The position numbers were made by a program, and so were the translations under genes. Below the pieces are notes generated by a model. It ran no database searches. It saw only the letters and a program-made list of their open reading frames with translations, and was not told the DNA's origin. DNA of 64,000 nt, from the NCBI GenBank assembly GCA_944319915.1, contig CALUEY010000002.1, forward strand, positions 140,331-204,330, written 5' to 3'. Below, piece by piece: positions 7,656 through 59,722 of this stretch (position 1 is its first letter; each line of letters begins with the position of its first letter). The stretch is from an uncultured Prevotella sp. (GTDB taxonomy: Bacteria; Bacteroidota; Bacteroidia; Bacteroidales; Bacteroidaceae).

Positions 7656-7770
7656 GCCTTGCCAAACGTGCGCTTTTGCCCTGCCAAACGGTGCGTTTCA
7701 GACTGCGGAATGGGCTGTTTTGCTTGGCGAAAAGGCACGTGTTGCCAAGTGGCTGATTGTCAATTTCTTG
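7656..7770 (+). repeat. Copy A of the 4 x 22-nt intergenic element
   Basis: Four units begin at about 7656, 7678, 7700 and 7722. Their core hexamers (AAACGT, AAACGG, GAATGG, AAAAGG) start at 7664, 7686, 7708 and 7730, exactly 22 bases apart. The last unit reads GGCACGTGTTG and is followed by a tail CCAAGTGGCTGATTGTCAAT also recognisable in other copies. It lies in the 348-base gap between mntP and yeiH. A small hairpin (7817-7838, ACGAGG...CCTCGT) lies between the element and yeiH. Confidence 0.85.
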
Positions 7771-7870
7771 CAGATGCAGGCCATGCTGAGCTTTTGATGC
7801 TGAATTATTTTGACATACGAGGTGCTTGCGCGCCTCGTGAAACTTTGAATTCAATTAATAATAAAAATAG

Positions 7871-8911
7871 ATGATTAAACTTACAGAACAGCGGAGCAGC
7901 ATGCTGCACGGCGTGTTGCTCATGGCACTCTTTTCGTGCGCGGCGTTTTACATTGGCGGCATGGGCTTTGTAAAGGCCCTTTCGTTCAGTCCGATGATTG
8001 TGGGCATAATCCTTGGCATGCTTTACGCCAACAGCCTGCGCAACAACCTCCCCGACACGTGGGTGCCAGGGATACAGTTTTGCTCTAAGCGGGTGCTGCG
8101 TCTGGGCATAATACTTTATGGCTTCAGGCTAACCTTCCAGGACGTCATGGCGGTGGGCCTGCCGGCCATTGTGGTGGATGCCGCAATCGTGGCCTCCACG
8201 ATTGCCGTTGGGCTGCTTGTGGGCAGGCTGCTCCGGATGGATCGCGGCATAGCCTTGCTCACCTCGGTGGGCAGTGCCATCTGTGGGGCTGCGGCCATCC
8301 TCGGCACAGAGTCGGCCATAAGGGTGAAGCCCTACAAGACGGCAGTGGCCGTGGCTACGGTGGTGATTTTCGGCACTTTGGCCATGTTCCTTTACCCCAT
8401 TGCCTACCGCAGTGGATTGCTGGGCCTGCAGCCCGAGGCCATGGGCCTGTTTACTGGGGCCACGGTGCACGAGGTGGCCCACGTGGTGGGGGCAGGCAAT
8501 GCCATGGGCAAGGCTGTGGCCGACACGGCAATAATAGTGAAGATGATAAGGGTGATGATGCTCGTGCCGGTGCTCTTCGTCATTGGCTATGCCGTGCGTA
8601 GGGCGGCTGTGGCTGGTGCTGGCGACTCAAGCCGCGCCAAGGTGCAGGTGCCGTGGTTTGCGGTGCTCTTCCTCGTTGCCATTGGCTTCAACTCATTGGG
8701 GGTGCTGCCGGCGGCGGTGGTTGGTTTCATCAATGAGTTCGACACGTTCCTGCTCACCATGGCCATGGCTGCGCTGGGCGCTGAGACGAGCATCGACAAG
8801 TTTCGCCGCGCCGGAGCCAAGCCGTTTGTGCTGGCCTTGGTTCTTTTCTTTTGGCTTGTAGGTGCTGGCTATGTGTTGGTTAGTTGTCTTGTGCCTGCCA
8901 TGATGGGGTAG
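7871..8911 (+). CDS. YeiH family (UPF0324) putative sulfate exporter, membrane protein
   Basis: 346 residues, normal for the family. About ten hydrophobic segments are visible. Family features include SVGSAICGAAAILGTE, FTGATVHEVAHVVGAG and a conserved core around NSLGVLPAAVVGFI. The family is annotated as putative sulfate/anion exporters, mainly by regulator context in other bacteria; no such regulator is adjacent here, so the substrate is inferred only. The start ATG at 7871 is preceded by an A/T-rich stretch. It is followed by a strong inverted repeat shared with the convergent helicase gene. Confidence 0.85.
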   Translation: MIKLTEQRSSMLHGVLLMALFSCAAFYIGGMGFVKALSFSPMIVGIILGMLYANSLRNNLPDTWVPGIQFCSKRVLRLGIILYGFRLTFQDVMAVGLPAIVVDAAIVASTIAVGLLVGRLLRMDRGIALLTSVGSAICGAAAILGTESAIRVKPYKTAVAVATVVIFGTLAMFLYPIAYRSGLLGLQPEAMGLFTGATVHEVAHVVGAGNAMGKAVADTAIIVKMIRVMMLVPVLFVIGYAVRRAAVAGAGDSSRAKVQVPWFAVLFLVAIGFNSLGVLPAAVVGFINEFDTFLLTMAMAALGAETSIDKFRRAGAKPFVLALVLFFWLVGAGYVLVSCLVPAMMG

Positions 8912-8946
8912 GGCAGGCGAACTTGTTGCATCCTCCCCCAAAAGTG

Positions 8947-8988
8947 GGCAAGGCCGCAAGGAACAGTGGTGTTCCTTGCGGCCTTGCC
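8947..8988. terminator. Bidirectional terminator between yeiH and the helicase gene
   Basis: A perfect 19-bp inverted repeat (GGCAAGGCCGCAAGGAACA and its complement) closes a 4-nt loop between two convergent genes, 35 bases after yeiH and 18 bases after the helicase stop. T-tracts are weak on both sides, so termination is inferred from the stem and position. Confidence 0.75.
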
Positions 8989-9006
8989 TGTATAAACGTT
9001 TGTTTG

Positions 9007-10737
9007 TCAGTGCTTTTGCTTCCTTTTGGCCAGCTTTTCCATCCTGCGCCTGGCTTCTGGTGCCTCGGGGTAAAGTTCAAGGGCCTTGGCGTAGTTGGCC
9101 ACGGCGGCGTCGGTCATGTGTTCTTTCTCGCACTCCTTGCCGAGCAGGGTGTATTCTGCGGCCAGCTTCTTGAGGAATGTCTCTTTGGAGCGCAGCTCGG
9201 CCTTAAGCCGCTCAACCTCGCTGGTGAGCGACGTTATCACCCCCAGCTTGCGGCGTATGAGCCGCTTGGCAGCCGGCTTCTCTATGTCGTAGCGGCTGTG
9301 GATGGCCTTGAAGAAGTAGGCTATGAAGGTGTCGAAGTCTTGGCGGTCGAAGGCTTTTACGGCTTGGTTGTACTCGGAGTCGGCCTTGCTCTCGTGCATG
9401 GCCTGCGAGTAAATTGCGCTGTCGTTGTACTGCCTGGCGAAGCTCACCACCTCGGGGCGGACGAATATGTCTTTTTTCTTGATGGGTTCCTTGAGGGTTA
9501 TGCCTTCGAGCGAGGAGCATCGGCTCAGGGCCACGTATGCTTGTCCCCCGGCGAACACTCCCCCTGAAAAATCGATGTTTACTTGCCTGAATGTTAGCCC
9601 TTGACTTTTGTGTACGGTGATGGCCCATGCCAGGCGCATGGGAAACTGGCGGTAGGTGCCGAGCGGCTGCTCTTCTATCTTCTGTTCTTTTTCGTTGAAG
9701 GTGTAGCGTATGTTCTCCCAGATGTCGCGCTCTACGTCGTACTCGTTGCCGTCTTCGGTTATCACGGTTATTATGCCTTGGCTTTCGTCGATGCCATCGA
9801 TGACGCCGAGGGTGCCGTTAACCCACCGCTTCTCCTTGTCGTTCTTTATGAAGATGACCTGCGCGCCGGGCTTTACGTGCAGTTCCATGGGCGTTGGCAG
9901 CGACGTAAGCGGGAATTCGCCGCTTATTTCGCCGTTGAAGATGGTTGGCCTGCCCTCAAGTTGGGCAAGCTGCTGCTCGTTGATGTAGTCAACAGTGTCG
10001 CGCCTTGAGGCCAGGGTTATGGCCAGTGACCCATTGCTGGTGCTGAGGTGTCGGCCCACGCGGTCGTTGAGTGCCTGCAGCTCCTTGTCGCTGGCTGTGT
10101 TGTTGCGGATGTGGTCGAGTATGCTGATGAAGGTGCTGTCTTTCTGCCTGTACACTTTCTTCAGCTCTATGCTGACGAGCCGCATCTCGTTGAACACCTT
10201 GGCGGCAAAGAAATAGAAGGAGCTGTAGAAAGGCTGGAGCAGCCGGCGGTCGTCTTCTGTGACCACCGGCTCAAGTTGGTAGATGTCGCCCACGAGCAGC
10301 AGTTGCTTCCCTCCGAATGGCTCGCGCATGTTGCGGCAGTAGATGCGCAGCACCTTGTCGATGAAGTCGATCGTGTCGGCGCACACCATGCTTATCTCAT
10401 CTATGATGATAAGCTCGGTTTCGCGCAGCAGCTTGCAATGGTCGCCACTGTATTTGAGTGTTTTCCTGATGTTTCGCGGGCTGTAGCGGTTGTCTGTGGG
10501 GATTAGCGGGTGGAAGGGCAGGCGGAAGAAGCTGTGCAACGTGCTACCCCCGGCGTTTATGGCTGCGATGCCGGTGGGCGCGAGGATTACGTGCTTTTTC
10601 TTGGTGGTCTTGGCCACATGGCGAAGGAACGTAGACTTGCCCGTGCCCGCTTTGCCGGTAAGGAAAAGCGAGCGACGGGTGGTGTTGATTATCTTCAGGG
10701 CCGACTGCCACTCTTTGTTGACGAGGTCTAACTCCAT
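9007..10737 (-). CDS. Pif1/RecD-like superfamily 1 helicase with a C-terminal TPR-like extension
   Basis: 576 residues. The N-terminal Walker A is LFLTGKAGTGKSTFLRHVAK, followed by ILAPTGIAAINAGGSTLHSF (motif Ia, as in Pif1), LIIDEISMV (Walker B), LLVGDIYQLEPV (motif III) and the C-terminal AITVHKSQGLTF and YVALSRCSSLEGI motifs. About 130 C-terminal residues are helical and charged, ending in a TPR-like stretch (VANYAKALELYPEAPEARRR). Pif1-like enzymes unwind DNA 5' to 3'. It is the last gene of the lpx/PBP1A operon, 16 bases after PBP1A. The specific substrate is unknown. Confidence 0.88.
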   Translation of the reverse strand: MELDLVNKEWQSALKIINTTRRSLFLTGKAGTGKSTFLRHVAKTTKKKHVILAPTGIAAINAGGSTLHSFFRLPFHPLIPTDNRYSPRNIRKTLKYSGDHCKLLRETELIIIDEISMVCADTIDFIDKVLRIYCRNMREPFGGKQLLLVGDIYQLEPVVTEDDRRLLQPFYSSFYFFAAKVFNEMRLVSIELKKVYRQKDSTFISILDHIRNNTASDKELQALNDRVGRHLSTSNGSLAITLASRRDTVDYINEQQLAQLEGRPTIFNGEISGEFPLTSLPTPMELHVKPGAQVIFIKNDKEKRWVNGTLGVIDGIDESQGIITVITEDGNEYDVERDIWENIRYTFNEKEQKIEEQPLGTYRQFPMRLAWAITVHKSQGLTFRQVNIDFSGGVFAGGQAYVALSRCSSLEGITLKEPIKKKDIFVRPEVVSFARQYNDSAIYSQAMHESKADSEYNQAVKAFDRQDFDTFIAYFFKAIHSRYDIEKPAAKRLIRRKLGVITSLTSEVERLKAELRSKETFLKKLAAEYTLLGKECEKEHMTDAAVANYAKALELYPEAPEARRRMEKLAKRKQKH

Positions 10738-10753
10738 CGTGAGCTGTGGGCTA

Positions 10754-13285
10754 TCAGAAGTAAACGTCCTCGTAGGTAGGCTTGCGTGCGGGTTTTTCTT
10801 TCCTGCCTGGCGCGGCCTGCGGCTTGTTTCCGTCGGCGTGGCCTGCCTTGGGGCTTGCCTCGCCTACTTGCTCATCGCCGCCAAGGCCGCCATCGATGGT
10901 TATGCTTTGCTCCCTTATCAACGCGCCGATGCTGTCGACGGATATTGAGTCGGTATCCTTCTTCTGCCTGTAGTAGCTTGCGCAGTTGTACATGTCGTAC
11001 TCAATCTCGTCGGTAGGCTGGGCAAACTTGCCGTGGTATCTCTGGAATGACGGGTCGCTGAGCACGGATTCGAGGAAGTAGCCGCAGATGGGCAAAGCCG
11101 TGCGGCTTCCCTGCCCGAGTGCGCCAGTGCGGAAGTGTATGCTGCGGTATTCGCCGCCTACCCACGCACCAACCACGAGCTTGGGGCTTACGCCCACGAA
11201 CCATGCATCGGAGTGGTTGTTTGACGTGCCGGTCTTGCCGCCGAACTCGGTGTCGCTGAACTTGCCTACATAGCGCCACAGGCTCATGCTCGTGGCCCCG
11301 GGTTCACGCAGTCCGCCGAGCAGCAACTGCTGCAAGAGGAATGCGCTCCTGTAGGGTATGGCCTGGTGCTGCTCGGTCGGGGCGGTGTAAATCTCGTTCC
11401 CGTCGCGGTCGAGTATCCTCGTGACGAGTATCGGCTCGTGTGCCTTCCCGTCGTTTACGGCTGTGCTGTATGCGTTAACAAGCTCAAGCAGGTTTACGTC
11501 GCTTGAGCCGAGGGCGAGCGAGGGGGTGTTGTCAAGCGGACTGTCGATGCCCATGGCCTGCGCCGTGTTGGCAATGTTGTCTATGCCTACTTCCTGCCCG
11601 AGCTTTACTGCTACGGAGTTTATGCTCTGCGCAAAGGCAGCCTTCAGCGGCATGGAGTCGCCGGTGAAGTAGCCGTTGGCGTTGGTAGGCGCCCATGTCA
11701 CCTCTTTCTTCTGCTGCTTGTCATACACCTTCATGCTGAAATATTCATCGCGGCGCTTGTCGCAGGGGGTAAGGCCTTGGTTCATGGCCTCTGCGTAGAC
11801 AAAGAGCTTGAACGTGGAGCCTGGCTGGCGCATGGCGGTAACCTTGTCGTACTTCCATGTGTTGAAGTCTACGTCGCCCACCCAGGCTTTCACGTGGCCT
11901 GTGCCTGGCTCCATGGCAACGAAGCCGCAGTGCATGAAGCGCTCCATGTAGCGTATGGAATCCATCGTGCTAAGCTCCATCTCGATTGTTCCTTTGTCAT
12001 AGTCGAACACTTTGACGGTGTGTGGCTTGTTGAGCCAATATGTTATGGAGTCGGGGTCGTTGGGGTATTTCTCGGCGAGGTGCTTGTATATAGGCAGCTT
12101 CTTTGCGAGGTTCTCGATGAAGTTTGGTATCTCCTTGTGGTGCTCGTCCTGCCACGGATTTGTTTTGCCCCAGTGGTTGTTGAAGTTGCGCTGCACCACT
12201 TTCATTTGCTTGCGGGCTGCCTCCTCGGCGTATTTCTGCATCTTTGTGTCAATCGTGGTGTATATCTTCAGGCCACTGTTGTAGAGGTCGTAGCCGTTTT
12301 CCTTGCACCAGTCGCGCAGGTAGTTGGCCACGGCCTCGCGGAAATACGTGGCCTGTCCGTCGTAGGTGCTTTCCACGCTGTAGTCCAGGGCAATGGGTAT
12401 GTTCTTCAGCGAGTCGTATTGTTCCGCCGTGAGGTCGCCGTGCATTACCATGTTGTTTAGCACAGTGTTCCGGCGACGGAGGCTGTTCTCGGGGTGGAGG
12501 CGGGGATTGTAGTATGTCGTTGCCTTCAGCATCCCTACAAGGACTGCTGCCTGTTCAGGCTTAAGCTCGGCTGGGGTGATGCCAAAATAGGTCTTGCAGG
12601 CAGTCTTGATTCCAAAGGCGTTGGAGCCAAAGTCTACCGTGTTGGCATACATCGTGAGGATTTCTTTCTTGTCGAACTGGCTCTCCAGCTTCACTGCTGT
12701 TATCCATTCCTTGCTCTTCATGATGAGGATCTTCAGGCCGGGAATGTTTCCGAGCAGGCCGGTGGAGTATTGTGTGCGGACGCGGAACATGTTCTTTGCC
12801 AGCTGCTGGGTGATTGTGGATGCTCCGCGGGCGTCGTTGTGCAGTGCATAATCCTTGATGGCGGCGAACACTCCTTGGAAGTCAATGCCGAAATGGCTGT
12901 AGAATCGCTCGTCCTCAGTGTCGACAAGGGCTTTCCAAAACACGGGGTTCACTTCTTCATATTCTACTGGGGTGCGGTTCTCGCTGAAGAACTTGCCAAT
13001 CATTACGCTGTCTGCGCTGTATATTTCGGTCGCCTGGTTGGTCATGGGATTCTTTATTGTCTCCATGTCGGGAGACTTCCCGAAGAGCCAAAGGAAGTTG
13101 ATGTCAACGGCGCCGAGGTACAAGAGGAACGCAACAATTAATGAAGCGAATGCTGAAAGTGCCTTTACGTACCAAGGCCTTCCTTTATACAAGCCTTTGT
13201 ACCAGTGCCAGCTTTTGCTTGTTATCTTCCTGCAAAAGCCAAAAAACGCCATGGCTTTGCTGTTGTTCTTCCTTGTCTTGCTCAT
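10754..13285 (-). CDS. Penicillin-binding protein 1A (bifunctional transglycosylase/transpeptidase)
   Basis: 843 residues from the ATG at 13285, which overlaps the miaA stop (ATGA); the frame extends upstream but that part lies within miaA. A cytoplasmic basic tail precedes one membrane helix (YVKALSAFASLIVAFLLYLG). The glycosyltransferase domain (GT51) shows EDERFYSHFGIDFQGVF and RGASTITQQLAKNMF. The transpeptidase domain shows the serine motif RQPGSTFKLFVYAE, the SxN motif AQSINSVAVKLG and KTGTSNNHSDAWFVG. It polymerises and cross-links peptidoglycan at the inner-membrane outer face. The C-terminus has a low-complexity tail (GKAR/PAR-rich). It belongs to the operon with the lipid A genes. 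Confidence 0.96.
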   Translation of the reverse strand: MSKTRKNNSKAMAFFGFCRKITSKSWHWYKGLYKGRPWYVKALSAFASLIVAFLLYLGAVDINFLWLFGKSPDMETIKNPMTNQATEIYSADSVMIGKFFSENRTPVEYEEVNPVFWKALVDTEDERFYSHFGIDFQGVFAAIKDYALHNDARGASTITQQLAKNMFRVRTQYSTGLLGNIPGLKILIMKSKEWITAVKLESQFDKKEILTMYANTVDFGSNAFGIKTACKTYFGITPAELKPEQAAVLVGMLKATTYYNPRLHPENSLRRRNTVLNNMVMHGDLTAEQYDSLKNIPIALDYSVESTYDGQATYFREAVANYLRDWCKENGYDLYNSGLKIYTTIDTKMQKYAEEAARKQMKVVQRNFNNHWGKTNPWQDEHHKEIPNFIENLAKKLPIYKHLAEKYPNDPDSITYWLNKPHTVKVFDYDKGTIEMELSTMDSIRYMERFMHCGFVAMEPGTGHVKAWVGDVDFNTWKYDKVTAMRQPGSTFKLFVYAEAMNQGLTPCDKRRDEYFSMKVYDKQQKKEVTWAPTNANGYFTGDSMPLKAAFAQSINSVAVKLGQEVGIDNIANTAQAMGIDSPLDNTPSLALGSSDVNLLELVNAYSTAVNDGKAHEPILVTRILDRDGNEIYTAPTEQHQAIPYRSAFLLQQLLLGGLREPGATSMSLWRYVGKFSDTEFGGKTGTSNNHSDAWFVGVSPKLVVGAWVGGEYRSIHFRTGALGQGSRTALPICGYFLESVLSDPSFQRYHGKFAQPTDEIEYDMYNCASYYRQKKDTDSISVDSIGALIREQSITIDGGLGGDEQVGEASPKAGHADGNKPQAAPGRKEKPARKPTYEDVYF

Positions 13286-14193
13286 AGTTCGGAAATGAAA
13301 TTCATAATGGAGTCTTTCTCGTTGGGACTGAACCAGCGTGCCGATGCATCGCGCTTGAACCAAGTAAGCTGTTTCCGGGCGTACCTGCGGGTGTTCCCCT
13401 TGATGCGGCTCACGGCTTCATCAAGTGGGTATTTGCCGTCGAAATGCTCAAAGAGTTCTTTGTATCCTACGGTGTTCAGCGCGTTTAGCCCCCTTTGGGG
13501 ATATAGCGAACGGGCTTCTTCAAGCAGGCCGGAGTCCATCATCGTGTCAACCCTTGCGTTGATTCGGGCGTAGAGTTCTTCCCTTGGTAGGTTCAAAACA
13601 ATCTTTTTCGTGTTGAAGTTTCGTGCTTTCTTGCTGTTCTTTCTGAACGAGGAATATGGCTTGCCTGTCTGCAAGCAGATTTCAAGACCATGCACAACGC
13701 GGCGCGTGTTCTTCTTGTCCACGATGCTATAATACTCCGGGTCAAGTCGCTTAAGTTCCTCGCAGAGAGCCTCTAACCCCTCTTTTGCCAATCTTTCCTT
13801 TACCAGGCTGCGGGTCTCTGGCGTTATTGTGGGAATGTCATCGATGCCGTTGCACACGGCATCGATGTACATCATGCTCCCTCCGCTCATAAGTGCGAAG
13901 CGTTGCCCTTGCCGCTCTTGCTGTTGCGAGAACAGCTGTTCGAGCAGCCTTATGGCATCTTGCTCGTACATGGCGGCATTGTAGTAGTCGTCCAGACGCA
14001 GGTTGCCGACAAAATAGTGCTTCACCCGTGCGGTTTGCTTAGCCGTTGGCGCTGCCGTGCCGATGCTCATCCCATTGTACATCTGCCGTGAGTCGGCGTT
14101 GATTATGGGTATGCCCAATGTTTCGGCGATTTCAAGGCAAAGCTCAGTCTTGCCCACGGCCGTTGGCCCCGTGACCACTATCAGCGTGTCCAT
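13282..14193 (-). CDS. miaA: tRNA dimethylallyltransferase
   Basis: 303 residues, the usual length. P-loop VVTGPTAVGKTELCLEIAE at the N-terminus, then INADSRQMYNGMSIGTAAP and GGSMMYIDAVCNGID, all MiaA signatures. It transfers a dimethylallyl group to N6 of A37 in tRNAs that read UNN codons. It lies directly against lpxA (no gap) and overlaps PBP1A by four bases, so it is translated from the cell-envelope operon. Confidence 0.97.
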   Translation of the reverse strand: MDTLIVVTGPTAVGKTELCLEIAETLGIPIINADSRQMYNGMSIGTAAPTAKQTARVKHYFVGNLRLDDYYNAAMYEQDAIRLLEQLFSQQQERQGQRFALMSGGSMMYIDAVCNGIDDIPTITPETRSLVKERLAKEGLEALCEELKRLDPEYYSIVDKKNTRRVVHGLEICLQTGKPYSSFRKNSKKARNFNTKKIVLNLPREELYARINARVDTMMDSGLLEEARSLYPQRGLNALNTVGYKELFEHFDGKYPLDEAVSRIKGNTRRYARKQLTWFKRDASARWFSPNEKDSIMNFISEL

Positions 14194-14964
14194 TTACCGG
14201 ATGATGCCCCGTTTGGAGTTCTCGATGAATGTGCAGATGTATTCCACCTCCTTTACTCCAGGGTATTTTGCCCGGGCTTCCTGGATGCCATCCTTTATTA
14301 TGCCGTTGGCATATATGATGCGGTATGTGTCGTGGATGGTCTCTATGGTCTCGTTGTCGAAACCGCGTCGGCGCAGCCCTATGATGTTGATGCCGCAGTA
14401 CCTTGTTGGCTCCTTGCCTGCTATGATGAACGGCGGGATGTCCTGGCTGAAACGGCAGCCGCCTTGTATCATCACGTGGCCGCCGATGCTGCAGAACTGA
14501 TGGCAGAGCACCGTTGCGCTGATGATGGCGTTGTCGTCGATGGTCACCTCGCCGGCGATTTTCGTGGAGTTGCCTATTATCAGCCCGCTTCCGGCAACGC
14601 AGTCGTGCGCTATGTGGACATTCTCCATGAACAGGTTGCCCGAGCCGATGATGGTCTTGCCTTTGCTGGCCGTCCCGCGGCTGATGGTGACGCTTTCCCT
14701 GATGCTGTTGTTGTCTCCGATTTCGCACGTTGTCCGCTCGCCTTTGTATTTAAGGTCTTGCGGTTTGGTGCTTATGCTTGCCCCGGAAAAGAACTCGTTG
14801 TTGTTCCCGATGCGCGCTCCGGCGTGGATTGTTACGCTGTTGTAGAATTTGTTGTTGTCGCCGATGACAGTGTCCTTGTCTATGCAGCAGAATGGGCCGA
14901 TGAAGTTGTTGTCGCCAAGTTTGGCTTCCGGGTCCACTATCGCCATTGGACTTATGATGTTCAT
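14194..14964 (-). CDS. lpxA: Acyl-ACP--UDP-N-acetylglucosamine O-acyltransferase
   Basis: 256 residues, normal size. Left-handed beta-helix hexapeptide repeats dominate (VIGDNNKFYNSVTI, KIAGEVTIDDNAII), and the catalytic histidine motif NVHIAHDCVAGSG is present. A helical C-terminal domain follows (NETIETIHDTYRII). LpxA performs the first step of lipid A synthesis in the cytoplasm. It sits 11 bases after the lpxC-fabZ fusion and directly before miaA. Confidence 0.97.
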   Translation of the reverse strand: MNIISPMAIVDPEAKLGDNNFIGPFCCIDKDTVIGDNNKFYNSVTIHAGARIGNNNEFFSGASISTKPQDLKYKGERTTCEIGDNNSIRESVTISRGTASKGKTIIGSGNLFMENVHIAHDCVAGSGLIIGNSTKIAGEVTIDDNAIISATVLCHQFCSIGGHVMIQGGCRFSQDIPPFIIAGKEPTRYCGINIIGLRRRGFDNETIETIHDTYRIIYANGIIKDGIQEARAKYPGVKEVEYICTFIENSKRGIIR

Positions 14965-14975
14965 GTGCTCAGTTC

Positions 14976-16358: not shown

Positions 16359-16370
16359 CCTTGGTAGTGC

Positions 16371-17402: not shown

Positions 17403-17452
17403 ATTGTTAGTTATGTTGGGCTTATTAATTCTGCAAATATAGCAATATTTAT

Positions 17453-18673: not shown

Positions 18674-18843
18674 GGACTTGGCGGTTTTCGTAGTGTAGGC
18701 AGAGTTCCCACTGCCGTTCGTCGTTGTGGCAGGGTACACTTGTTTGTTGCCGTTGTGCCGTGTTTGGGGTAGCCGTTCGGTGGCTTGCTTGGCTTGACTT
18801 TTTTCTTACATAGCGACTCTTCGCAATTCACTGGTAGCGCCTT

Positions 18844-18955
18844 GCCTTGCCAAAAGGCCTGTTTCGCCTTGTCAAACGGCCTCTTTCGCACTGCTGAACA
18901 GCCCGTTTGGCAGGGAGAAACGGCACATATTGTAAGTTGTTGGTGCCCAGGCTTG
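18844..18955 (+). repeat. Copy B of the 4 x 22-nt intergenic element
   Basis: Core hexamers AAAAGG, AAACGG, GAACAG and AAACGG start at 18852, 18874, 18896 and 18918, a strict 22-base step. The last unit ends GGCACATATTG, followed by TAAGTTGTTGGTG, similar to the tail of other copies. Units 2 and 3 can pair over nine bases (GTCAAACGG with CCGTTTGGC, one G-U). It occupies the 389-base gap between the HD gene and pyrF (18674-19062), in which I see no gene. Confidence 0.85.
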
Positions 18956-19062
18956 TGGGCAAACCCCGAAAGTTTGTCGCATTGTTTTACAAAAATGAGG
19001 ATACCGCCACAGGCATGGCGCGGTGAGCGAAGCCATTTCCTGTCCTTGCGGTTGCCCCGGCC

Positions 19063-25896: not shown

Positions 25897-26010
25897 GCGC
25901 GATGAAACGGCCTGTTTGGGGCTGCAATATGGCCCGTTTTGGTGGCTAAAACGGCTTTCGGAGGCTAAAAGCGGTACGTTTTGCAAAGCGCTGGATGCCA
26001 GGCATATAGC
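25897..26010 (+). repeat. Copy D of the 4 x 22-nt intergenic element
   Basis: Core hexamers AAACGG, ATATGG and AAACGG start at 25905, 25927 and 25949 (22-base step). The fourth core (AAGCGGTACGTTTTG) is shifted two bases to the left. CCGTTTT of unit 2 and AAAACGG of unit 3 form a perfect 7-bp hairpin with a 7-nt loop. The tail reads GCAAAGCGCTGGATGCCA. The 542-base divergent gap 25690-26231 otherwise holds two palindromes and promoter boxes. Confidence 0.8.
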
Positions 26011-37167: not shown

Positions 37168-37276
37168 CGTGTAGCGGCATGGCCTACGGCTTGCCTTGCC
37201 TTTGATTGCCGCCTTGCCGTCTCTTCGTCAATGTTCTTTACAAAATCATTCATTGTGGCATGGCCTTGCAGCGCCG

Positions 37277-37395
37277 GCATTGCCAAACGGCCTCTTTGGG
37301 ATTGCCAAACGGCCGGTTTCGCGTTGCCGAACGGCCCCTTTTGCATTGTAAAACGGCACGTTTGGTAACTTGCAGGAAACCAATCGGTTACCTAC
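37277..37395 (+). repeat. Copy C of the 4 x 22-nt intergenic element
   Basis: The best conserved copy. Core hexamers AAACGG, AAACGG, GAACGG and AAACGG start at 37285, 37307, 37329 and 37351. Units begin GCATTGCC, GGATTGCC, GCGTTGCC and GCATTGTA. The last unit ends GGCACGTTTGG and leads into the tail TAACTTGCAGG. It lies between the GH25 gene and the HNH remnant. Confidence 0.9.
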
Positions 37396-37452
37396 GATGG
37401 TTGATGCAGGGAAATAACTTTACTATTTATACGCTACGCCTTTCCTTGCGAC

Positions 37453-49495: not shown

Positions 49496-49513
49496 TTAAC
49501 ATTTTTATGTTAA
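49496..49513. repeat. 18-nt 7-4-7 palindrome beside copy E
   Basis: TTAACAT, TTTT, ATGTTAA. Arms and both flanks (CCG left, TCGC right) match the palindrome beside copy D; only the four central bases are inverted. It lies upstream of copy E, whereas in D it lies downstream. Confidence 0.6.
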
Positions 49514-49580
49514 TCGCAATCGCAATGCTTGTCCTTGCTAAACACTTGGCATTCAGTGAATTGCATATGTATGCCGATTC

Positions 49581-49670
49581 GCGTTCCGAAACGGTGCGTT
49601 TGGGCGGGTGAAACAGGCCATATTGCAGCCCGATATGGCCTGTTTCATCCTGCGATATGTGGCATATTAA
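49581..49670 (+). repeat. Copy E of the 4 x 22-nt intergenic element, with an 18-bp hairpin
   Basis: Core hexamers AAACGG, AAACAG, ATATGG and ATATGT start at 49589, 49611, 49633 and 49655, exactly 22 apart although the bases differ most from the other copies. Units 2 and 3 are reverse complements: 49606-49623 pairs with 49633-49650 over 18 bp (one G-U) with a 9-nt loop. The tail is not conserved here. It lies in the 454-base convergent gap between the glucosaminidase gene and ispE (49275-49728). Confidence 0.85.
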
Positions 49671-49728
49671 AAAACATCATGGCGCGGAGCGTTTTTACTT
49701 CCATATATGCAACTATGCTTTCCATTCT

Positions 49729-50910: not shown

Positions 50911-50941
50911 TTGCAAGATTGGCGAATATCCATTATCTTTG
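50911..50941 (+). promoter_or_regulatory. Promoter (TTG - 20 nt - TATCTTTG) for ridA-queC, with a long leader
   Basis: TTG (50911-50913), 20 bases, TATCTTTG (50934-50941): a full match to both promoter elements. The start codon at 51061 is about 110 bases further, leaving a GC-rich leader that could fold. Confidence 0.8.
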
Positions 50942-51060
50942 TGCTTGGGATGGGGCGGCTCGGCGAGCCTCGGGCCGTTTCGCCCTGCGGCCTTGCTCTT
51001 GGCAGGGAAACAAAGGAAAGAGTAAAACGCAACATTGTTATTTTAAAACTTAAACACAAC

Positions 51061-52091: not shown

Positions 52092-52222
52092 ATTAGGAGT
52101 TTTGAATTAGGAGTTAGGAATTGTGCTGTATGCAGCCCCCATATGCTGCCTTTGGTCATTTGTCTGTCTCCAGTCTTCATCCTCCGCATATTCTTTTAAC
52201 TTTTAACCTTTAACTTTTAACT
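52092..52222 (+). repeat. Short tandem AT-rich repeats before ftcD
   Basis: Two repeats of GAATTAGGAGTT-like sequence (52091-52120) and, just before ftcD, a run of TTTTAAC/CTTTAAC heptamers (about 52194-52224). They differ in base composition from both neighbouring genes. The last heptamer merges into TAACTTTG at 52218-52225, which overlaps the ftcD start codon. Confidence 0.7.
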
Positions 52223-53938: not shown

Positions 53939-53941
53939 TTT

Positions 53942-55963
53942 ATGGATAAAGAACAATTTGCCGCCGATATCAGGGCTGGAATACCCGATGTGCTGCCGGC
54001 CCCCATGCCTTACGACCCAGACATTAACCATGCCCCGAGGCGCAAGGACATCCTTACGCCATCGGAAAAACGGCTTGCGCTGCGCAATGCGCTGAGGTAT
54101 TTCCCAAAGAAGTTCCATGCCACCTTGGCCAAAGAGTTTGCCGAGGAGCTTGAGGCGTATGGCCGCATTTACATGTATCGCTTCCGGCCGAGGTACGAGA
54201 TGTATGCCCGACCCATTGACGAGTACCCGCACCGTTCGCTGCAGGCTGCGGCCATAATGCTGATGATACAGAACAACCTCAACCCAGCTGTGGCGCAGCA
54301 CCCGCACGAACTAATAATATATGGTGGAAACGGGGCCATATTCCAGAATTGGGCGCAGTACAGGTTGACGATGAAATATCTCAGCGAGATGACCGACGAG
54401 CAGACCCTCGTGATGTATTCCGGGCATCCGCTGGGCCTCTTCCCCTCGCACAGGAATGCTCCGAGGGTAGTGGTGACTAACGGCATGGTGATACCCAACT
54501 ACTCCAAGCCCGACGACTGGGAACGCATGAATGCCCTTGGCGTGAGCCAGTATGGGCAGATGACGGCCGGCTCTTATATGTACATTGGCCCGCAGGGAAT
54601 AGTGCACGGCACAACCATCACCGTGCTCAATGCCGCCCGCATGAAGATGGGGCATGAGGCGGGGCGGACCGACATCCATGGGATGCTCTTTGTATCGTCT
54701 GGCCTCGGCGGAATGTCGGGCGCGCAACCAAAGGCCGGCAACATTGCCGGGGTAGTGAGTGTCGTGGCCGAGATCAATCCGCTTGCGGCCCGCAAGCGCT
54801 ATGAGCAGGGCTGGGTGGACGAGCTTCACGATGACCTCGGCGAGCTTATCCCGGCCATACGCAAGGCCGTGGCGGAGAGGAGGACGGTGTCGATGGCGTA
54901 TATAGGCAATGTGGTTGACTTATGGGAGCGGCTTGCCGAAGAAGGCATCAACGTAGACCTTGGCAGCGACCAAACCTCGCTCCACAACCCGTGGGCCGGT
55001 GGCTACTATCCCGTTGGCATGACTCTCGACGAGTCGAAACGGATGATGGCTGACGACCCTGCCGAGTTCCGCCTTAGGGTGCAGGCTTCGCTCCGCCGCC
55101 AAGTGGCAGCCATCAACAAGCTGGCTGCCCGCGGGATGTATTTCTTCGATTATGGCAACGCCTTCTTGCTGCAGTCGCAGCGCGCTGGCGCCGACATAAT
55201 GGGGGCTGATGGCAACTTCAGGTATCCATCATACGTGCAGGACATCATGGGGCCGATGTTCTTCGATTATGGCTTCGGGCCTTTCCGCTGGGTGTGCACT
55301 TCGGGCGACCCGGCTGACCTTGCTGTGACCGACCGCATCGCCACTGAGGTGTTAGAGGGTATCAGGCATACGGCACCAACAGAAATTGCCCACCAGCTCG
55401 ACGACAACATCCACTGGATACGGGAAGCTGGCCGGAACAACCTTGTGGTAGGCTCGCAAGCCCGCATTCTCTATGCCGACGCCGAAGGCCGGACCAAGAT
55501 TGCGCTGGCCTTCAACGAGGCAATACGCCGGGGCGAGATTAGCCGCCCCGTGGTGTTGGGGCGCGACCACCACGATGTGTCTGGTACCGACTCGCCATTC
55601 CGTGAAACAAGCAACATTTACGACGGCTCGCAGTTCTGCGCCGACATGGCCGTGCAGAACGTCATTGGAGACGCTTTCCGGGGGGCTACGTGGGTGTCGC
55701 TCCACAACGGTGGCGGAGTTGGTTGGGGCGAGGTAATCAATGGTGGCTTCGGCATGGTAATCGATGGTGGCGAGGACAGCGACCGCCACATACGCGAGAT
55801 GCTCTTCTGGGACGTAAACAACGGCATTGCCCGCCGCAGCTGGGCACGCAACGAAGGCTCCATGCGCAGCATCGAGCGCGAGATGTTGCGCACACCGGGG
55901 CTGACTGTCACCATGCCCAACCTCGTTGACGATAGTGTGCTCGACAATTTAATTAAGAATTAA
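53942..55963 (+). CDS. hutU: Urocanate hydratase, long form
   Basis: 673 residues, about 115 more than the classical enzyme. The NAD-binding and catalytic core is recognisable: LIIYGGNGAIFQNWAQYRLT, YSGHPLGLFPSHRNAPRVVV, TAGSYMYIGPQGIVHGTTIT, SSGLGGMSGAQPKAGNIAG and WVSLHNGGGVGWGEVINGGF. Extra length is at the N-terminus and in the middle (TSLHNPWAGGYYPVGMTL onward). It turns urocanate into imidazolonepropionate. The gene starts 3 bases after ftcD ends. Confidence 0.96.
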   Translation: MDKEQFAADIRAGIPDVLPAPMPYDPDINHAPRRKDILTPSEKRLALRNALRYFPKKFHATLAKEFAEELEAYGRIYMYRFRPRYEMYARPIDEYPHRSLQAAAIMLMIQNNLNPAVAQHPHELIIYGGNGAIFQNWAQYRLTMKYLSEMTDEQTLVMYSGHPLGLFPSHRNAPRVVVTNGMVIPNYSKPDDWERMNALGVSQYGQMTAGSYMYIGPQGIVHGTTITVLNAARMKMGHEAGRTDIHGMLFVSSGLGGMSGAQPKAGNIAGVVSVVAEINPLAARKRYEQGWVDELHDDLGELIPAIRKAVAERRTVSMAYIGNVVDLWERLAEEGINVDLGSDQTSLHNPWAGGYYPVGMTLDESKRMMADDPAEFRLRVQASLRRQVAAINKLAARGMYFFDYGNAFLLQSQRAGADIMGADGNFRYPSYVQDIMGPMFFDYGFGPFRWVCTSGDPADLAVTDRIATEVLEGIRHTAPTEIAHQLDDNIHWIREAGRNNLVVGSQARILYADAEGRTKIALAFNEAIRRGEISRPVVLGRDHHDVSGTDSPFRETSNIYDGSQFCADMAVQNVIGDAFRGATWVSLHNGGGVGWGEVINGGFGMVIDGGEDSDRHIREMLFWDVNNGIARRSWARNEGSMRSIEREMLRTPGLTVTMPNLVDDSVLDNLIKN

Positions 55964-56000
55964 AAATAAAGAATCAAGAAAAACTCAAATAATCCCCTCC

Positions 56001-57491
56001 ATGGTTCATGAGATATCTGCCGGACACCTCACTATAGAGCGTATCGGCGAAATAATAGGCAAGGGCTACAAGCTGAAGCTCAGCGACGACGCCAAGTGCA
56101 GGATTGTGCGCTGCCGCGAATACCTCGACAGCAAGATAGCCGAGAACAACTCACCCATCTATGGCGTAACGACGGGCTTCGGCTCGCTTTGCAATGTATC
56201 CATCGGCAAGGACCACCTCGCCCAGTTGCAGATAAACCTCATGATGTCGCATGCCTGCGGCACGGGCGAGCGTGTGCCTAACGAGGTGGTGAAGATAATG
56301 CTGCTGCTCAAGGTGCAGTCGCTAAGCTATGGGTATTCCGGCTGCAAGCTCGACACAGTGGAGCGCCTTGTTGACTTCTTCAACAACGACGTTTACCCCG
56401 TGGTATACATGCAAGGCTCCCTTGGGGCATCGGGCGACCTCGTGCCGCTGGCGCATCTTTCGCTTCCGCTCGTGGGGCTGGGCGAGGTAGAGTTCCGCGG
56501 CAAGGTGATGAGCGGCGCCGAGGCACTGCGCAAAAATGGATGGAAGCCCATACAGCTGGCTTCAAAGGAAGGGCTGGCGCTGCTCAACGGCACGCAGAAC
56601 ATGAGTGCCTTCGCCGTGTGGGCCATACTTAATGCCACGCGGCTTTGCGGCTGGGCCGATGCCATCTCGGCCATGTCGCTCGATGCTTATTGCGGACTTG
56701 TGGAGCCTTTCACTGACGCGGTGCACCAAGTGAGGCCCCACCATGGGCAGATAGAGACCGCAAGGCGCATGCGAGCCTTGCTCGGCGGCAGCGAGATAGT
56801 GGCCAAGCCAAAGGAGTACGTGCAGGACCCCTATTCTTTCCGTTGCATACCGCAGGTGCATGGCGCGGTGAAAGACACGCTGGCCTATGTCCGCTCGGTT
56901 ATTGACATTGAGATAAATTCGGCCACAGACAACCCCACGGTATGTCCCGATGACGACATCATCATCTCCGCAGGCAACTTCCACGGCGAGCCGATAGCCC
57001 TGCCCATGGACTTCCTTGCCATTGCCGTAAGCGAGCTGGCCAACATTTCCGAGCGCCGCATCTACAAGCTCGTTTCCGGCACAAGGGGGCTGCCCAGCTT
57101 CCTCGTGGCCAACCCGGGCGTAAACAGCGGGTTCATGATCACGCAGTACACGGCGGCGTCGGTCGTAAGCCTCAACAAGTGTCTCTGCGCCCCTGCCTCG
57201 GTAGACAGCATACCCTCGAGCCAAGGGCAAGAAGACCACGTCAGCATGGGGGCCAATGCCGCCCTCAAGCTATACAAGGTGGTGCTCAACACCGAGAGGG
57301 TGCTGGCCATCGAGCTGTTCAACGCCGCCCAGGCCCTCGACTTCCGCCGCCCGCTCAAGTCGTCGGCGGCAGTCGAGTCGGTGCACGCCGCCTACCGCCG
57401 CGTGGTGCCTTTCATCGTCAATGACGAAGTGATGTATCCCCACATATCCCGTTCGATAGACTTCCTCAGAGACAATGCGCCTGCTTGTTGA
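56001..57491 (+). CDS. hutH: Histidine ammonia-lyase
   Basis: 496 residues. The Ala-Ser-Gly triad that forms the MIO cofactor is in GSLGASGDLVPLAHLSLPLV; YGVTTGFGSLCNVSIGKDHL and LLNGTQNMSAFAVWAILNAT are typical. It removes ammonia from histidine to give urocanate, the first step of the pathway. It is 37 bases after hutU, and its end overlaps hutI by 17 bases. Confidence 0.97.
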   Translation: MVHEISAGHLTIERIGEIIGKGYKLKLSDDAKCRIVRCREYLDSKIAENNSPIYGVTTGFGSLCNVSIGKDHLAQLQINLMMSHACGTGERVPNEVVKIMLLLKVQSLSYGYSGCKLDTVERLVDFFNNDVYPVVYMQGSLGASGDLVPLAHLSLPLVGLGEVEFRGKVMSGAEALRKNGWKPIQLASKEGLALLNGTQNMSAFAVWAILNATRLCGWADAISAMSLDAYCGLVEPFTDAVHQVRPHHGQIETARRMRALLGGSEIVAKPKEYVQDPYSFRCIPQVHGAVKDTLAYVRSVIDIEINSATDNPTVCPDDDIIISAGNFHGEPIALPMDFLAIAVSELANISERRIYKLVSGTRGLPSFLVANPGVNSGFMITQYTAASVVSLNKCLCAPASVDSIPSSQGQEDHVSMGANAALKLYKVVLNTERVLAIELFNAAQALDFRRPLKSSAAVESVHAAYRRVVPFIVNDEVMYPHISRSIDFLRDNAPAC

Positions 57492-58713
57492 GAACATATC
57501 ACGGCTTGCCGGCATTGGCAACGAAGGGCGGCTGCGCCTTTGCGGGGCCGGCATGTCGGTGCTCAATGAACTCAACAATGCATGGCTTCTCGTTGAAGAC
57601 GGGCGCTTTGCAGCCTTCGGCGGGAAAGGAGGCATCCCGCCGGAGGGGCTGCGGGCCGACGTAGTGGTGGATGCACGCGGCGGAACAGTGCTTCCGTCGT
57701 GGTGTGATCCGCATACCCACATCGTATATGCGGGCAGCCGCGAGGGAGAGTTCGTTGACAAGATTCGCGGGTTGAGCTATGCCGAGATAGCCCGCAGGGG
57801 AGGGGGCATACTTAATTCGGCCGACCTGCTCCATACGCTCACCGAAAACCAACTGTACGCCCAGGCCATGCGCCGCGTGCGCGAGGTGATGCTGAAAGGC
57901 ACCGGGTGCATAGAGATAAAGAGCGGATATGGGCTCAATACGGTCGACGAACTCAAGATGCTCCGCGTGATACGCCGCATCGGCGAGAGAGTTCCGGCCC
58001 GCGTGGTGTCCACTTTCCTGGGTGCCCACGCCATAGGCCGTGGCTACAGCCATGCCGAATACGTAGACCTTGTCGTTGACGAGATGATGCCAGAGGTGGG
58101 GCGCGAGCGGCTGGCCGACTTTGTCGACGTGTTCTGCGACGAAGGTTTCTTCACACCCGAAGACACCGACCGCATACTCGATGCTGCCGCCCGCTGGGGC
58201 ATGAAGCCAAAGATTCATGTCGACGAGCTTGCTTCCATCGGCGGGTTGCAGGTGGGAGTGAGGCACGGGGCTCTGTCTGTCGACCACCTGGAGCACATGA
58301 CCGATGGCGAGTTTGGCATCCTTCGGGGCAGCGCCACCATGCCCACGGCACTGCCAGGCACGTCGTTCTTCCTCAACATGCCCTATGCTCCGGCCCGCAA
58401 GATGATCGACAGCGGTCTGCCGGTGGCCATCGCCAGTGACTACAACCCTGGCTCCACGCCATCGGGCGACATGAAGTTCGTCGTTTCGCTGGCCTGCATA
58501 AAGATGCGCCTGCTGCCCGCCGAGGCCATCAATGCCGCCACCCTTAATTCGGCGTGTGCCATGGGATTGAGTTCGGAATACGGGTCGATAGACGTCGGCA
58601 AGGTAGCTAACTTCTTCATAACCGAGCCAGTTCCCTCGATAGACTTTATCCCTTATGCCTACACCACACCCGTTGTCAGCCGTGTGTTTCTTGCCGGCAA
58701 GGAGGTGGAGTGA
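57475..58713 (+). CDS. hutI: Imidazolonepropionase
   Basis: 412 residues. Amidohydrolase metal site: WCDPHTHIVYAGSREGEFVD; later ligands in FLGAHAIGRGYSHAEYVDLV, KIHVDELASIGG and VAIASDYNPGSTPSGDMKFV. It opens the imidazolone ring to give formiminoglutamate, which FtcD then uses. It overlaps hutH by 17 bases. No terminator is evident in the 158 bases that follow. Confidence 0.97.
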   Translation: MRLLVENISRLAGIGNEGRLRLCGAGMSVLNELNNAWLLVEDGRFAAFGGKGGIPPEGLRADVVVDARGGTVLPSWCDPHTHIVYAGSREGEFVDKIRGLSYAEIARRGGGILNSADLLHTLTENQLYAQAMRRVREVMLKGTGCIEIKSGYGLNTVDELKMLRVIRRIGERVPARVVSTFLGAHAIGRGYSHAEYVDLVVDEMMPEVGRERLADFVDVFCDEGFFTPEDTDRILDAAARWGMKPKIHVDELASIGGLQVGVRHGALSVDHLEHMTDGEFGILRGSATMPTALPGTSFFLNMPYAPARKMIDSGLPVAIASDYNPGSTPSGDMKFVVSLACIKMRLLPAEAINAATLNSACAMGLSSEYGSIDVGKVANFFITEPVPSIDFIPYAYTTPVVSRVFLAGKEVE

Positions 58714-58871
58714 TGTTGGTGGCCCGGCGATGGCGGCCGGAAACATTGGGCGGGAGCCGCTCCGCACTGCTGCCTACCGTGGCGTAGGGTGGCAGGCGTG
58801 GCGGCTTTCTGCATCCGTGTGCGTGGGCCGCGGGCTTCATGTCTCAAGGCCGCGGCCTGTGCGTTCTGGCG

Positions 58872-59390
58872 TTATCTGACTTTTTCCTGCCCATGCACGC
58901 CGGGGAGGAGTCGTTTTATCATCAGGAAGTTTGTCAGGCACAGGTCTACCGCCTTGCGTTTCTGCTTCTTTATGGCAATGTATCCGTGGTGCTCAAAGAA
59001 TGGCCGTGCCGTTATGCTCACCTCCGTGGTTATCTCTTTTATGCCCCTCGCCCGGGCGTAATCCTCCAGCTCATAGAGCATGGCCGTGCCGGCCTTGTGC
59101 CTCTGCCAGGCAGTGTTCACATACATTAGCTCCAGGTGTCCGTTGTCAGCAATGGCCGCAAAGCCGGCCAGCTTCCCCTCTTCAGTTGTGGCCACAATGG
59201 CGTGCAGTGTCTCCACCAGCCGTTCCCACAGCCCTTGTTTGTTGGCGCACGCAGCCCAGTCGGCCTTCTCTTCTTTGCAGTAGTCTTTGTCGTCGATGCC
59301 CTTCACCGTCTGCCTGAACATCTCTTTCATCTCCGCCACGTCGGCCGGTGTGGCCTGGCGCAGCCTCCATTGTTTAGTCTGCATAGTCAT
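58872..59390 (-). CDS. GNAT-family N-acetyltransferase
   Basis: 172 residues. The acetyl-CoA motif is in LELMYVNTAWQRHKAGTAML (the Q/RxxGxG/A type reads QRHKAGTA), followed by LEDYARARGIKEITTEVSIT and the C-terminal ARPFFEHHGYIAIKKQKR, all standard GNAT blocks. The substrate is unknown. It stands alone, converging on hutI, with a promoter box placed inside an inverted repeat. Confidence 0.9.
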   Translation of the reverse strand: MTMQTKQWRLRQATPADVAEMKEMFRQTVKGIDDKDYCKEEKADWAACANKQGLWERLVETLHAIVATTEEGKLAGFAAIADNGHLELMYVNTAWQRHKAGTAMLYELEDYARARGIKEITTEVSITARPFFEHHGYIAIKKQKRKAVDLCLTNFLMIKRLLPGVHGQEKVR

Positions 59391-59483
59391 GCCTGATGTC
59401 TTTAAGCTGTTTTGCCGCCTGCGGCTGATGCCGGGAGCCGCATTCCTGTGTCGCGGCCAGCCCGGCGCTGTGCCAGTTTCAGC

Positions 59484-59526
59484 AGGCGGCTCACAAAGTT
59501 ACGCATAATATGTGTGAAAGCCGCCT
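59484..59526 (-). promoter_or_regulatory. GNAT gene promoter box nested in an inverted repeat
   Basis: On the minus strand TAACTTTG (59494-59501) matches the -7 box. It lies between AGGCGGCT (59484-59491) and AGCCGCCT (59519-59526), which are reverse complements. The repeat could be an operator spanning the core promoter. Confidence 0.5.
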
Positions 59527-59601
59527 CAGCCTGCTATTTTCCCATTTCGTTGTATTATAAATGTTTACAATATGCATCCGATACGGCTATCCTGCCGTTT
59601 C

Positions 59602-59722
59602 ATTCCGCTAAACGGTGCTTATTGCAGTGTGGAACGGCTTGTTTCGTGCTGCAAAAGCGGCCGTTTTGGGGTGCAAAAACAACCTATGCTACAACTTGCT
59701 GACACTCAATATGTTTGCCCGT
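59602..59722 (+). repeat. Copy F of the 4 x 22-nt intergenic element
   Basis: Core hexamers AAACGG and GAACGG start at 59610 and 59632; the third (AAAGCGG) is at 59654 with one inserted base and the fourth is degenerate (AAAACAACC at 59676). The tail CAACTTGCTGACACTCAAT matches the tails of copies A and C best. Confidence 0.75.

Follow-up and report, generated by a model that had tools for sequence, protein, structure and literature searches.

Palindromic sites of a single protein are dispersed over the chromosome in the cases of SlmA, Noc (nucleoid occlusion) and ParB with parS, where they occur as single sites. The BIME/REP sequences of enterobacteria and Pseudomonas, including the IHF-binding BIMEs, have a protein-binding role. 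Such a role is also described in a report on BIME/REP (PMC2817692). Among the Bacteroidales, the BrickBuilt MITE of Porphyromonas gingivalis is intergenic and consists of a 23-nt tandem repeat between a leader and a tail (PMC4596501). Its unit is given there as AGAYCATARTATCCTCTCRTRTG, with 18 full repeats in one element and 19 copies in strain ATCC 33277, and its TIRs, of the GAGACCTTTGCA type, resemble those of IS5-family elements (PMC4596501). Finally, phased A-tract signals and curved DNA have been reported in prokaryotic genomes (PMC3940949).

Here we describe a repeated element in a window of 64,000 nucleotides, the whole stretch of Prevotella DNA that was analysed. A first-pass annotation had noted six copies of an element made of four 22-nt units, and six copies are indeed found at those places, with lattice scores far above chance. 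The half-site is a 10-bp sequence, TGCnAAACGG, which alternates with its own reverse complement in the register of an exact 11-bp lattice. The resulting array is about 88 bases long, intergenic, and recurs every several kilobases in some Prevotella. The natural unit is better read as eight alternating half-sites on this lattice; the four 22-bp units survive as four such pairs, although the count is mostly, and not always, four. The arrays of the window and the features beside them are as follows.

7660..7747, no strand: array A; half-site scores 12, 5, 15, 7, 9, 11, 9, 4; lattice neighbours -1 and -14
18848..18935, no strand: array B; eight half-sites, scores 11, 11, 13, 10, 7, 15, 6, 4
25897..25984, no strand: array C, degenerate; scores 8, 10, 9, 10, 9, then -23; indel after five in register
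37281..37368, no strand: array D; eight half-sites, scores 15, 8, 15, 9, 11, 12, 14, 10
49574..49661, no strand: array E, flanks opposite in orientation; eight half-sites, scores 6, 13, 6, 10, 9, 5, 7, 7
59595..59682, no strand: array F; eight half-sites, scores 7, 10, 4, 10, 6, 8, 12, 4
7746..7756, minus strand: IHF-like motif TCARNNNNTTR at array A, offset -32
49553..49563, plus strand: IHF-like motif at array E, offset -32
59692..59702, minus strand: IHF-like motif at array F, offset -32
18987..18990, minus strand: end box (GTAA core) of element B, offset -78
18806..18809, minus strand: end box (GTAA core) of element B, offset +103
37420..37423, minus strand: end box of element D, offset -78
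37238..37241, minus strand: end box of element D, offset +104
59746..59749, minus strand: end box of element F, offset -79
59565..59568, minus strand: end box of element F, offset +102
7618..7621, minus strand: end box of element A, offset +103

Exactly eight half-sites score positive in each of arrays A, B, D, E and F, and the next lattice position on either side is negative. An inexact step had been assigned to D and F, but both hold eight half-sites in register; the broken copy is C, in which five good half-sites are followed by an indel. A common orientation of all copies had also been proposed. Dyad-symmetric units, however, give the array no clear orientation and, judged by the flanks, A, B, C, D and F agree while E is opposite. 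On contigs C1 and C2 of the window genome, 36 elements have 8-half-site lattice scores of 45 to 93, whereas the best of twelve scores in a Markov-1 random-sequence control was -21.9. When the real sequence was read backwards, as a cruder control, five scores between 25 and 47 arose, which we take to be the arrays themselves in reverse. The ends of the lattice are sharp, and the half-site count in 37 elements of this genome is narrow (8 in 19, 7 in 11, 6 in 4 and 9 in 3). A CRISPR array was rejected, as there are no spacers and the units are contiguous and diverged.

Like the sites of SlmA, Noc and ParB, the arrays are palindromic and scattered over the chromosome, but they comprise about four dyads and differ in half-site spacing. 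With BIME/REP they share many intergenic copies, short alternating motifs, a lineage-specific sequence and, beside some copies, an IHF-like motif. They differ from BIME/REP in their narrow half-site number, in their even spacing in two species, in avoiding hairpin palindromes, and in that G084 and G017, the most array-rich genomes, have no RAYT (Y1) match. Our transposase search covered the Y1 family, PF01797, which 13 of the 21 array-rich genomes searched lack (among them G336, G383 and G058 as well as the two just named) and which is no commoner there (8/21) than in others (11/21); one partial match was found in the window genome (E 1.7e-8) and one in G089. RAYT-driven REP/BIME is disfavoured by this absence, these two genomes excepted. 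Nor do we find the REP/BIME stem-loop palindrome: the N position of the half-site lacks complementarity in the window genome, and five of the six genomes compared avoid cores that are palindromic. The likeness to BrickBuilt lies in an intergenic tandem repeat of nearly the same period in a host that is also of the Bacteroidales. The arrays, however, mostly have 6-10 alternating half-sites, and their unit, period and ends differ from the published letters, that is, from the 23-nt unit and the TIR type given there; membership in that family was rejected on these grounds. Like phased A-tracts, the A/T runs of the arrays keep step with the helix, recurring about every 11 bp, but those signals are a statistical tendency, and the arrays are discrete, sequence-specific and under selection. 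No description of the arrays was found in the literature searched and Rfam, at gathering thresholds, gave no match in the window, in keeping with the earlier remark that no named element of this structure was known to its author.

The regions beside the array are also patterned. In the window genome, 17 of 36 elements have an IHF-like motif (consensus TCARNNNNTTR) at offset -31 or -32. End boxes with a GTAA core lie at offset -78 in 14 of the 36 and at +103 in 19, both reading in the same direction. In G084, 14 of 18 elements measure exactly 186 bp between inverted ends TGTAAA and TTTACA, with some conserved sequence outside these ends; the 14 aligned copies are 0.73-0.88 identical, with no near-identical pairs.

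Further copies are many: 68 arrays lie in 744 kb of the window genome, none of them inside genes predicted by our own caller. On C1 and C2 they occupy 14 of 45 divergent, 12 of 127 co-directional (net length at least 60) and 9 of 36 convergent gaps; the 30 arrays of C3 and C5 lie in 6 divergent, 20 co-directional and 4 convergent gaps. This distribution over all three gap types bears out the view that they are not simple promoters or terminators. The arrays had been said to sit in the longest gaps. The gaps that hold them are indeed long, with a median net length of 486 bp compared with 156 bp in the remaining gaps of 60 bp or more, yet the shortest measures 133 bp. The neighbours share no common family: the Pfam scan took 65 of the 67 listed flanking proteins (two were left out of the alignment, and the 58 listed for G383 lay outside the scan) and assigned them to 105 families, none with more than three members.

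Spacing in the window genome is even. No interval under 4.5 kb occurs among the 64 of C1, C2, C3 and C5, where about 20 would be expected. For C1 and C2 (35 intervals, the shortest 4,661 bp, where about 10 below 4.5 kb were expected), none of 20,000 randomisations among the real intergenic gaps reproduced this, under each of four null models. The same holds for C3 and C5, a later check set (29 intervals, the shortest 4,550 bp, where 10-11 below 4.5 kb were expected; 0 of 5,000 randomisations with either of two null models). This direct scan, which rejected as arrays the single half-site matches at C3:61412, C3:76830 and C5:66938, supersedes an earlier set of 58 intervals (minimum 4,562 bp) among the matches listed on other contigs, from which C35 and C36, with one long interval each, had been left out. 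G058 is also evenly spaced, with 60 intervals of mean 6.2 kb and minimum 1.9 kb, and a CV of 0.41 against 0.78-0.88 expected (0 of 5,000 randomisations). G089 is borderline (14 intervals, CV P=0.088; short intervals few, P=0.005). In G383 spacing is not even by CV (34 intervals, P=0.91), with few short intervals (P=0.02), and in G084 it is not even (16 intervals, CV P=0.43); even spacing as a universal trait is rejected by G084 and, by CV, by G383. A study of E. coli counts 400-500 supercoiled domains per chromosome (PMC3820752), and the array spacing is of the order of such domains.

When orthologous gaps were compared, the sister genome was found to keep 15 of 16 comparable arrays. The mean score of these 15 arrays is 81 in the sister and 72 in the window genome, whereas randomly placed substitutions in equal number would leave 21; retention is significant (P<0.05) in 12 of the 13 arrays with any change. 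This supports the suggestion of the first-pass annotation that the geometry reflects selection and not recent copying. In 12 aligned arrays the two genomes differ at 3-10% of the three A positions, 12-21% of the other conserved positions, 27% of spacer bases and 36.5% of free N positions. Whole arrays diverge by 17.1%, against 13.2% for other intergenic DNA, and their own flanks by 18-19%. That is, constraint is limited to the pattern inside the array, and arrays overall diverge about like other intergenic DNA. There is purifying selection on the half-sites, as a sequence-specific protein-docking array requires.

Among the relatives compared, the gap of array B has an array in G089 and G058 and weaker ones in G285 and G133 (6-site scores 68, 72, 38 and 41, respectively). 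Array C adjoins the same gene in G089, G058, G236 and G195 and is absent from G285 and G133. In these two of six relatives compared, the gap still has a box like TAnnTTTG, a Bacteroidetes promoter motif; its persistence there also speaks against the arrays being promoters. Reciprocal best proteins linked the window genome to G058 by only 29 pairs, with 12 gaps open to comparison, since most of the fetched contigs lack synteny; both genomes have arrays in 1 of these gaps, G058 only in 2, and neither in 9.

Across the genus, the general pattern gave at least 30 matches in 25 of 398 genomes and any match in 164; therefore, the function of the arrays cannot be essential to the genus. In a family search of 301 genomes, none of the 279 from other genera had more than three matches. 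Relatives keep the lattice frame and size, with a core triplet that differs from species to species, which is what a protein whose specificity drifts would be expected to produce. Half-sites number 9 in 16 of 18 arrays of G084, 8 or 9 in 57 of 62 of G058, and 8, 9 or 10 in 16, 8 and 6 of the 36 counted in G383. The arrays of G383 cluster in one section of its second replicon: C2:1-260 kb holds 36 and C2:600-660 kb only 1, and samples of C1 amounting to 320 kb gave 2. Those of G084, in the listed subset of matches, lie on both replicons without an obvious large gap. Queried with one G084 element, no phage record matched, and only two plasmid records did, both from Prevotella nigrescens, the better a 568-kb replicon; phage and plasmid origins were rejected. 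The number of HU/IHF-family proteins does not separate array-rich from array-poor genomes (37 genomes, the window genome being outside the set) and was rejected as a clue to the protein partner; no binding protein for the arrays was found.

Every unit is nearly palindromic, which could reflect RNA hairpins or bidirectional terminators, and G084 shows a slight excess over chance in the agreement of N positions across dyads (0.70 and 0.67 vs 0.61). We find this explanation hardly credible: in the window genome agreement does not exceed chance (0.26 and 0.30 vs 0.32), divergent gaps also hold arrays, Rfam is silent in the window, and perfect palindromes are avoided, so that the earlier exclusion of terminators holds here too. 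Specifically, identical core triplets in both halves are rarer than under random pairing in five of six genomes, namely G000 (9/109, 26.9 expected), its sister G089 (0/48, 10.3), which is not independent of it in this test, G084 (0/67, 16.1), G383 (0/133, 41.2) and G058 (16/230, 66.6). Such avoidance would also suit the core sites of a site-specific recombinase, with inverted arms (TGCnAAA) around a mostly asymmetric 7-bp core. That is very improbable, however, as avoiding long perfect palindromes is a simpler cause, G195 lacks the avoidance (11/20 vs 9.9 expected), and hundreds of active sites would rearrange a genome whose arrays are in fact syntenic with those of its sister.

Half-sites of ordinary operator size, dyad-symmetric and intergenic, might instead be the operators through which a global transcription regulator controls a regulon, at roughly 200 sites, and the excess in divergent over co-directional gaps on C1 and C2 agrees with this. 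We judge it unlikely, given the arrays in convergent gaps, the predominance of co-directional gaps on C3 and C5, the lack of a common family among flanking proteins, an even spacing that a regulon does not predict, and the promoter-like box that outlasts array C. A possibility to be taken more seriously, though still a doubtful one, is that of miniature mobile elements, MITE- or BIME-like, whose array and end boxes serve a transposase in trans and which spread in bursts and then persisted; target immunity or the loss of close neighbours would produce the even spacing. The fixed 186-bp units with inverted ends in G084, the presence or absence of arrays in gaps B and C between species, match counts from none to hundreds within one genus, and a second, longer composite repeat in G058 with an array inside all point this way. 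The distribution of Y1, the lack of near-identical pairs in G084, the arrays shared with the sister genome and the selection on the lattice point the other way, and inspection by eye of the sequence next to the G084 ends revealed no target-site duplication; the array-free gap C of G285 and G133 is too diverged to show one.

We give about even chances to the proposal that the element is a docking array of a dimeric, sequence-specific DNA-binding protein, whose likeliest job would be to structure the chromosome. Some eight half-sites alternating every 11 bp would place about four adjacent dimers along almost the same face of the helix; together with a bend site, IHF-like in some species, and the end boxes, they would form a nucleoprotein complex spanning roughly 180-190 bp. 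Certain species would keep a complex of this kind every several kilobases of intergenic DNA, where it might anchor or bound supercoiled loops. The exact lattice with its sharp ends, the narrow half-site number, the selection, the even spacing in two species and its likeness to the E. coli domains, the lack of a shared neighbour family and the species-varying triplet speak for this proposal. Against it speak the failure to find a binding protein, the divergence of whole arrays, the spacing in G084, G383 and G089, the clustering in G383, the patchy occurrence in the genus and the HU/IHF counts. More tentatively, and with somewhat less than even confidence, we envisage a genus-specific system of beads along the whole chromosome, in which evenly spaced arrays of eight half-sites would seat a protein of their own, whose DNA code evolves fast, and would mark off loops of about 5-12 kb, a sequence-encoded map of topological domains. 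The observation that started this work is confirmed in part, and its interpretation is supported; of the outcomes named beforehand as refuting it, namely no further copies, widely scattered unit counts or a match to a described repeat family, none occurred in the searches made here.

The usual view of supercoiling domains in bacteria is that no fixed sequence marks their borders. The arrays suggest an undescribed chromosome-structuring system, and a regular, intergenic, selected element with a species-varying code offers a direct handle on whether DNA encodes chromosome architecture. They also provide a natural experiment on how DNA and protein coevolve, spread over many species of a major genus of the gut and mouth.

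All six copies (A to F) that the first-pass annotation had located in the window are present, and aligning them by their dyads gives the organization of the element. The half-site is a 10-bp TGCnAAACGG, which alternates with its own reverse complement, with 1 base in between. The array thus advances by exactly 11 bp per half-site, so that one pair of half-sites makes up the 22-nt unit proposed previously. The proposal of four units per copy holds for five of the six copies, which have exactly eight positive in-register half-sites, but not for copy C, in which five good half-sites are followed by an indel. Lattice positions on either side of the eight half-sites score negative, likewise in five of the six. 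Palindromes are avoided in the 7-bp core in five of the six genomes tested; this avoidance was not seen in G195, another Prevotella genome (20 dyads).

To assess abundance, a trained half-site matrix was scanned over contigs C1 (1-240000), C2 (331-204330), C3 (1-160000) and C5 (1-140000) of the window's genome. C1 and C2 contain 36 full-lattice elements, or 37 if shorter runs are admitted, and C3 and C5 contain 31 further arrays, of which four score weakly over eight sites (1 to 25). The total is 68 arrays over 744 kb, a density that would correspond to about 240 in 2.63 Mb. Lattice scores of the 36 elements range from 45 to 93, and in Markov-1 random sequence the highest of twelve values was -21.9. 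When the real sequence was reversed, five values from 25 to 47 were obtained, taken to be the arrays themselves read backwards. A 28-base pattern has 99 matches in the window's genome and 264 in G058, a second Prevotella genome; its backward version has none in either.

Contig C2 and the sister genome G089 share long matching blocks, mostly of 88-93% identity. For three of the 19 C2 arrays examined, G089 has no corresponding stretch; among the 16 that are comparable, 15 have an array at the same place, the exception being C2:85320. In an alignment of 12 arrays, differences between the two genomes are fewest at the three A positions (3-10% of cases), amount to 12-21% at the remaining conserved positions, and rise to 27% at the spacer base and 36.5% at the free N position. 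Divergence is 8.3% in coding sequence near arrays, 13.2% in other intergenic DNA, 18-19% in element flanks and 17.1% in whole arrays. That is, the array does not evolve slowly as a block; rather, it is the pattern that is kept. The mean lattice score is 72 in the window's genome and 81 in the G089 orthologues (each the top-scoring lattice within 400 bp, a slight bias in favor of G089), as against 21 when the observed substitutions are placed randomly. Score retention in G089 is significant (P<0.05) for 12 of 13 changed arrays. These values bear out the earlier suggestion of selection on geometry. Two arrays, at C2:62283 and 69665, match their G089 orthologues at all 88 bases; other intergenic DNA is about 13% different.

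Orthologous gaps were also compared in six relatives. The gap holding copy B has an array in the window's genome, G089 and G058, and a weaker one in G285 and G133; there is none in G195, and a neighboring gene is missing from G236. The gap holding copy C has arrays in the window's genome, G089 and G236, and none in G285 or G133. In G058 and G195 an array adjoins the gap C gene, in sequence that stops short of the other neighbor.

Along C1 and C2, the 35 intervals between arrays have a mean of 12.0 kb and a minimum of 4,661 bp. None is under 4.5 kb, where about 10 would be expected from random choice among real intergenic gaps, and the observed minimum was matched in none of 20,000 randomizations under each of four null models. 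C3 and C5, scanned later, gave the same picture: the 29 intervals average 9.9 kb, the shortest being 4,550 bp, and the 10-11 intervals below 4.5 kb expected by chance are again lacking (0 of 5,000 randomizations, two null models); the coefficient of variation (CV) stands out less there, at 0.63 (P 0.01-0.02). G058 has 62 arrays within 400 kb, separated by 6.2 kb on average (minimum 1.9 kb), with a CV of 0.41 versus 0.78-0.88 expected (0 of 5,000). Short intervals are scarce in the G089 set (P=0.005), but its CV gives P=0.088; in G383 they are few (P=0.02), with a CV P of 0.91. No evenness of array spacing was found in G084. Even spacing is thus a trait of some species. In G383, 36 arrays crowd part of the second replicon (C2:1-260000, 260 kb), and C1 has two in 320 kb of samples.

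With a simple gene caller, no array lies inside a gene among 37 on C1 and C2, 31 on C3 and C5, and 62 in G058. Array-bearing gaps are divergent, co-directional and convergent in 14, 12 and 9 cases on C1 and C2, in 6, 20 and 4 on C3 and C5, and in 19, 28 and 15 in G058. The neighbors have no family in common, as 65 proteins fall into 105 Pfam families, each in at most three members. Prevotella nigrescens NZ_CP082843 has 12 arrays in 100 kb, of 5 to 9 half-sites each; 10 lie outside annotated genes and two overlap short hypothetical proteins, in a gene table that is incomplete. Separately, a perfect 16-bp tandem repeat at window 60093-60125 lies close to the start of a stretch with ORFs missed by the codon model; the stretch is perhaps acquired DNA.

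Flanks were aligned for 36 elements of the window's genome, with orientation and register picked for maximal likeness. GTAA-type end boxes occur at -78 in 14 and at +103 in 19, and the IHF-like motif TCARNNNNTTR occurs at -31 or -32 in 17. This motif is found at -31 in 10 of 18 G084 elements and, with one extra spacer base permitted, at -9 or -10 in 37 of 62 in G058; in the flank comparison, G383 elements are without it. In G084, 14 of 18 elements are bounded by an inverted pair of ends, TGTAAA and TTTACA, at a distance of exactly 186 bp. G058 C22 carries a longer composite repeat between genes, several hundred bases in length, with the array mid-repeat (near 8473, 15969, 27790 and 33392); six are so classed, one of which, at 86131, resembles the ordinary kind. 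At G084 C2:318411-318976 a short HU-family gene adjoins a longer HU-domain frame, and such tandem pairs occur in many of 37 genomes searched.

The AAACGG form reaches at least 90 matches per strand in 7 of 398 genomes of the genus. The general frame with a free center has at least 30 matches in 25 of the 398 and any match in 164. Centers are CGG-type in the window's genome and G058, GCG/CAG/CCT-type in G084, and ACC/GTA/AGG-type in G383. Exact matches in a named genome collection comprise seven stretches, all from uncultured Prevotella MAGs, and 279 sampled genomes from other genera of the family have at most three matches each. Beyond the genus, a trace of the frame may be present in G503, in a TTTAGC form (C2:11978-12014 and C16:104234), with three matches at two loci, one mismatch each.

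An RNA structure is disfavored, since the free N positions in the window's genome show no complementarity and palindromes are avoided; G084 has a slight excess of agreement at that position across dyads. The arrays may have a mobile origin. REPs driven by a RAYT are disfavored, as the Y1 family is absent from 13 of 21 array-rich genomes; the window's genome has one partial match. The BrickBuilt MITE of P. gingivalis (PMC4596501) has a similar period, but its unit, ends and repeat number are all different. The passages searched in PMC3733652, on GTAG and CGTC repeats, do not mention Prevotella, and those of PMC5771137 treat P. gingivalis repeats. We found no description of the arrays in the open-licence papers searched, in agreement with the first-pass annotation, which knew of no named element with this structure.

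The lattice resembles a series of protein contacts, is under selection, is narrow in size, and is evenly placed in two species. The helical repeat of relaxed DNA is slightly shorter than 11 bp. Because the 11-bp step slightly exceeds it, one may speculate that an array could keep the bound DNA underwound. We infer that the arrays are bound by a dimeric protein, with about four dimers per array, and that they would serve to structure the chromosome.
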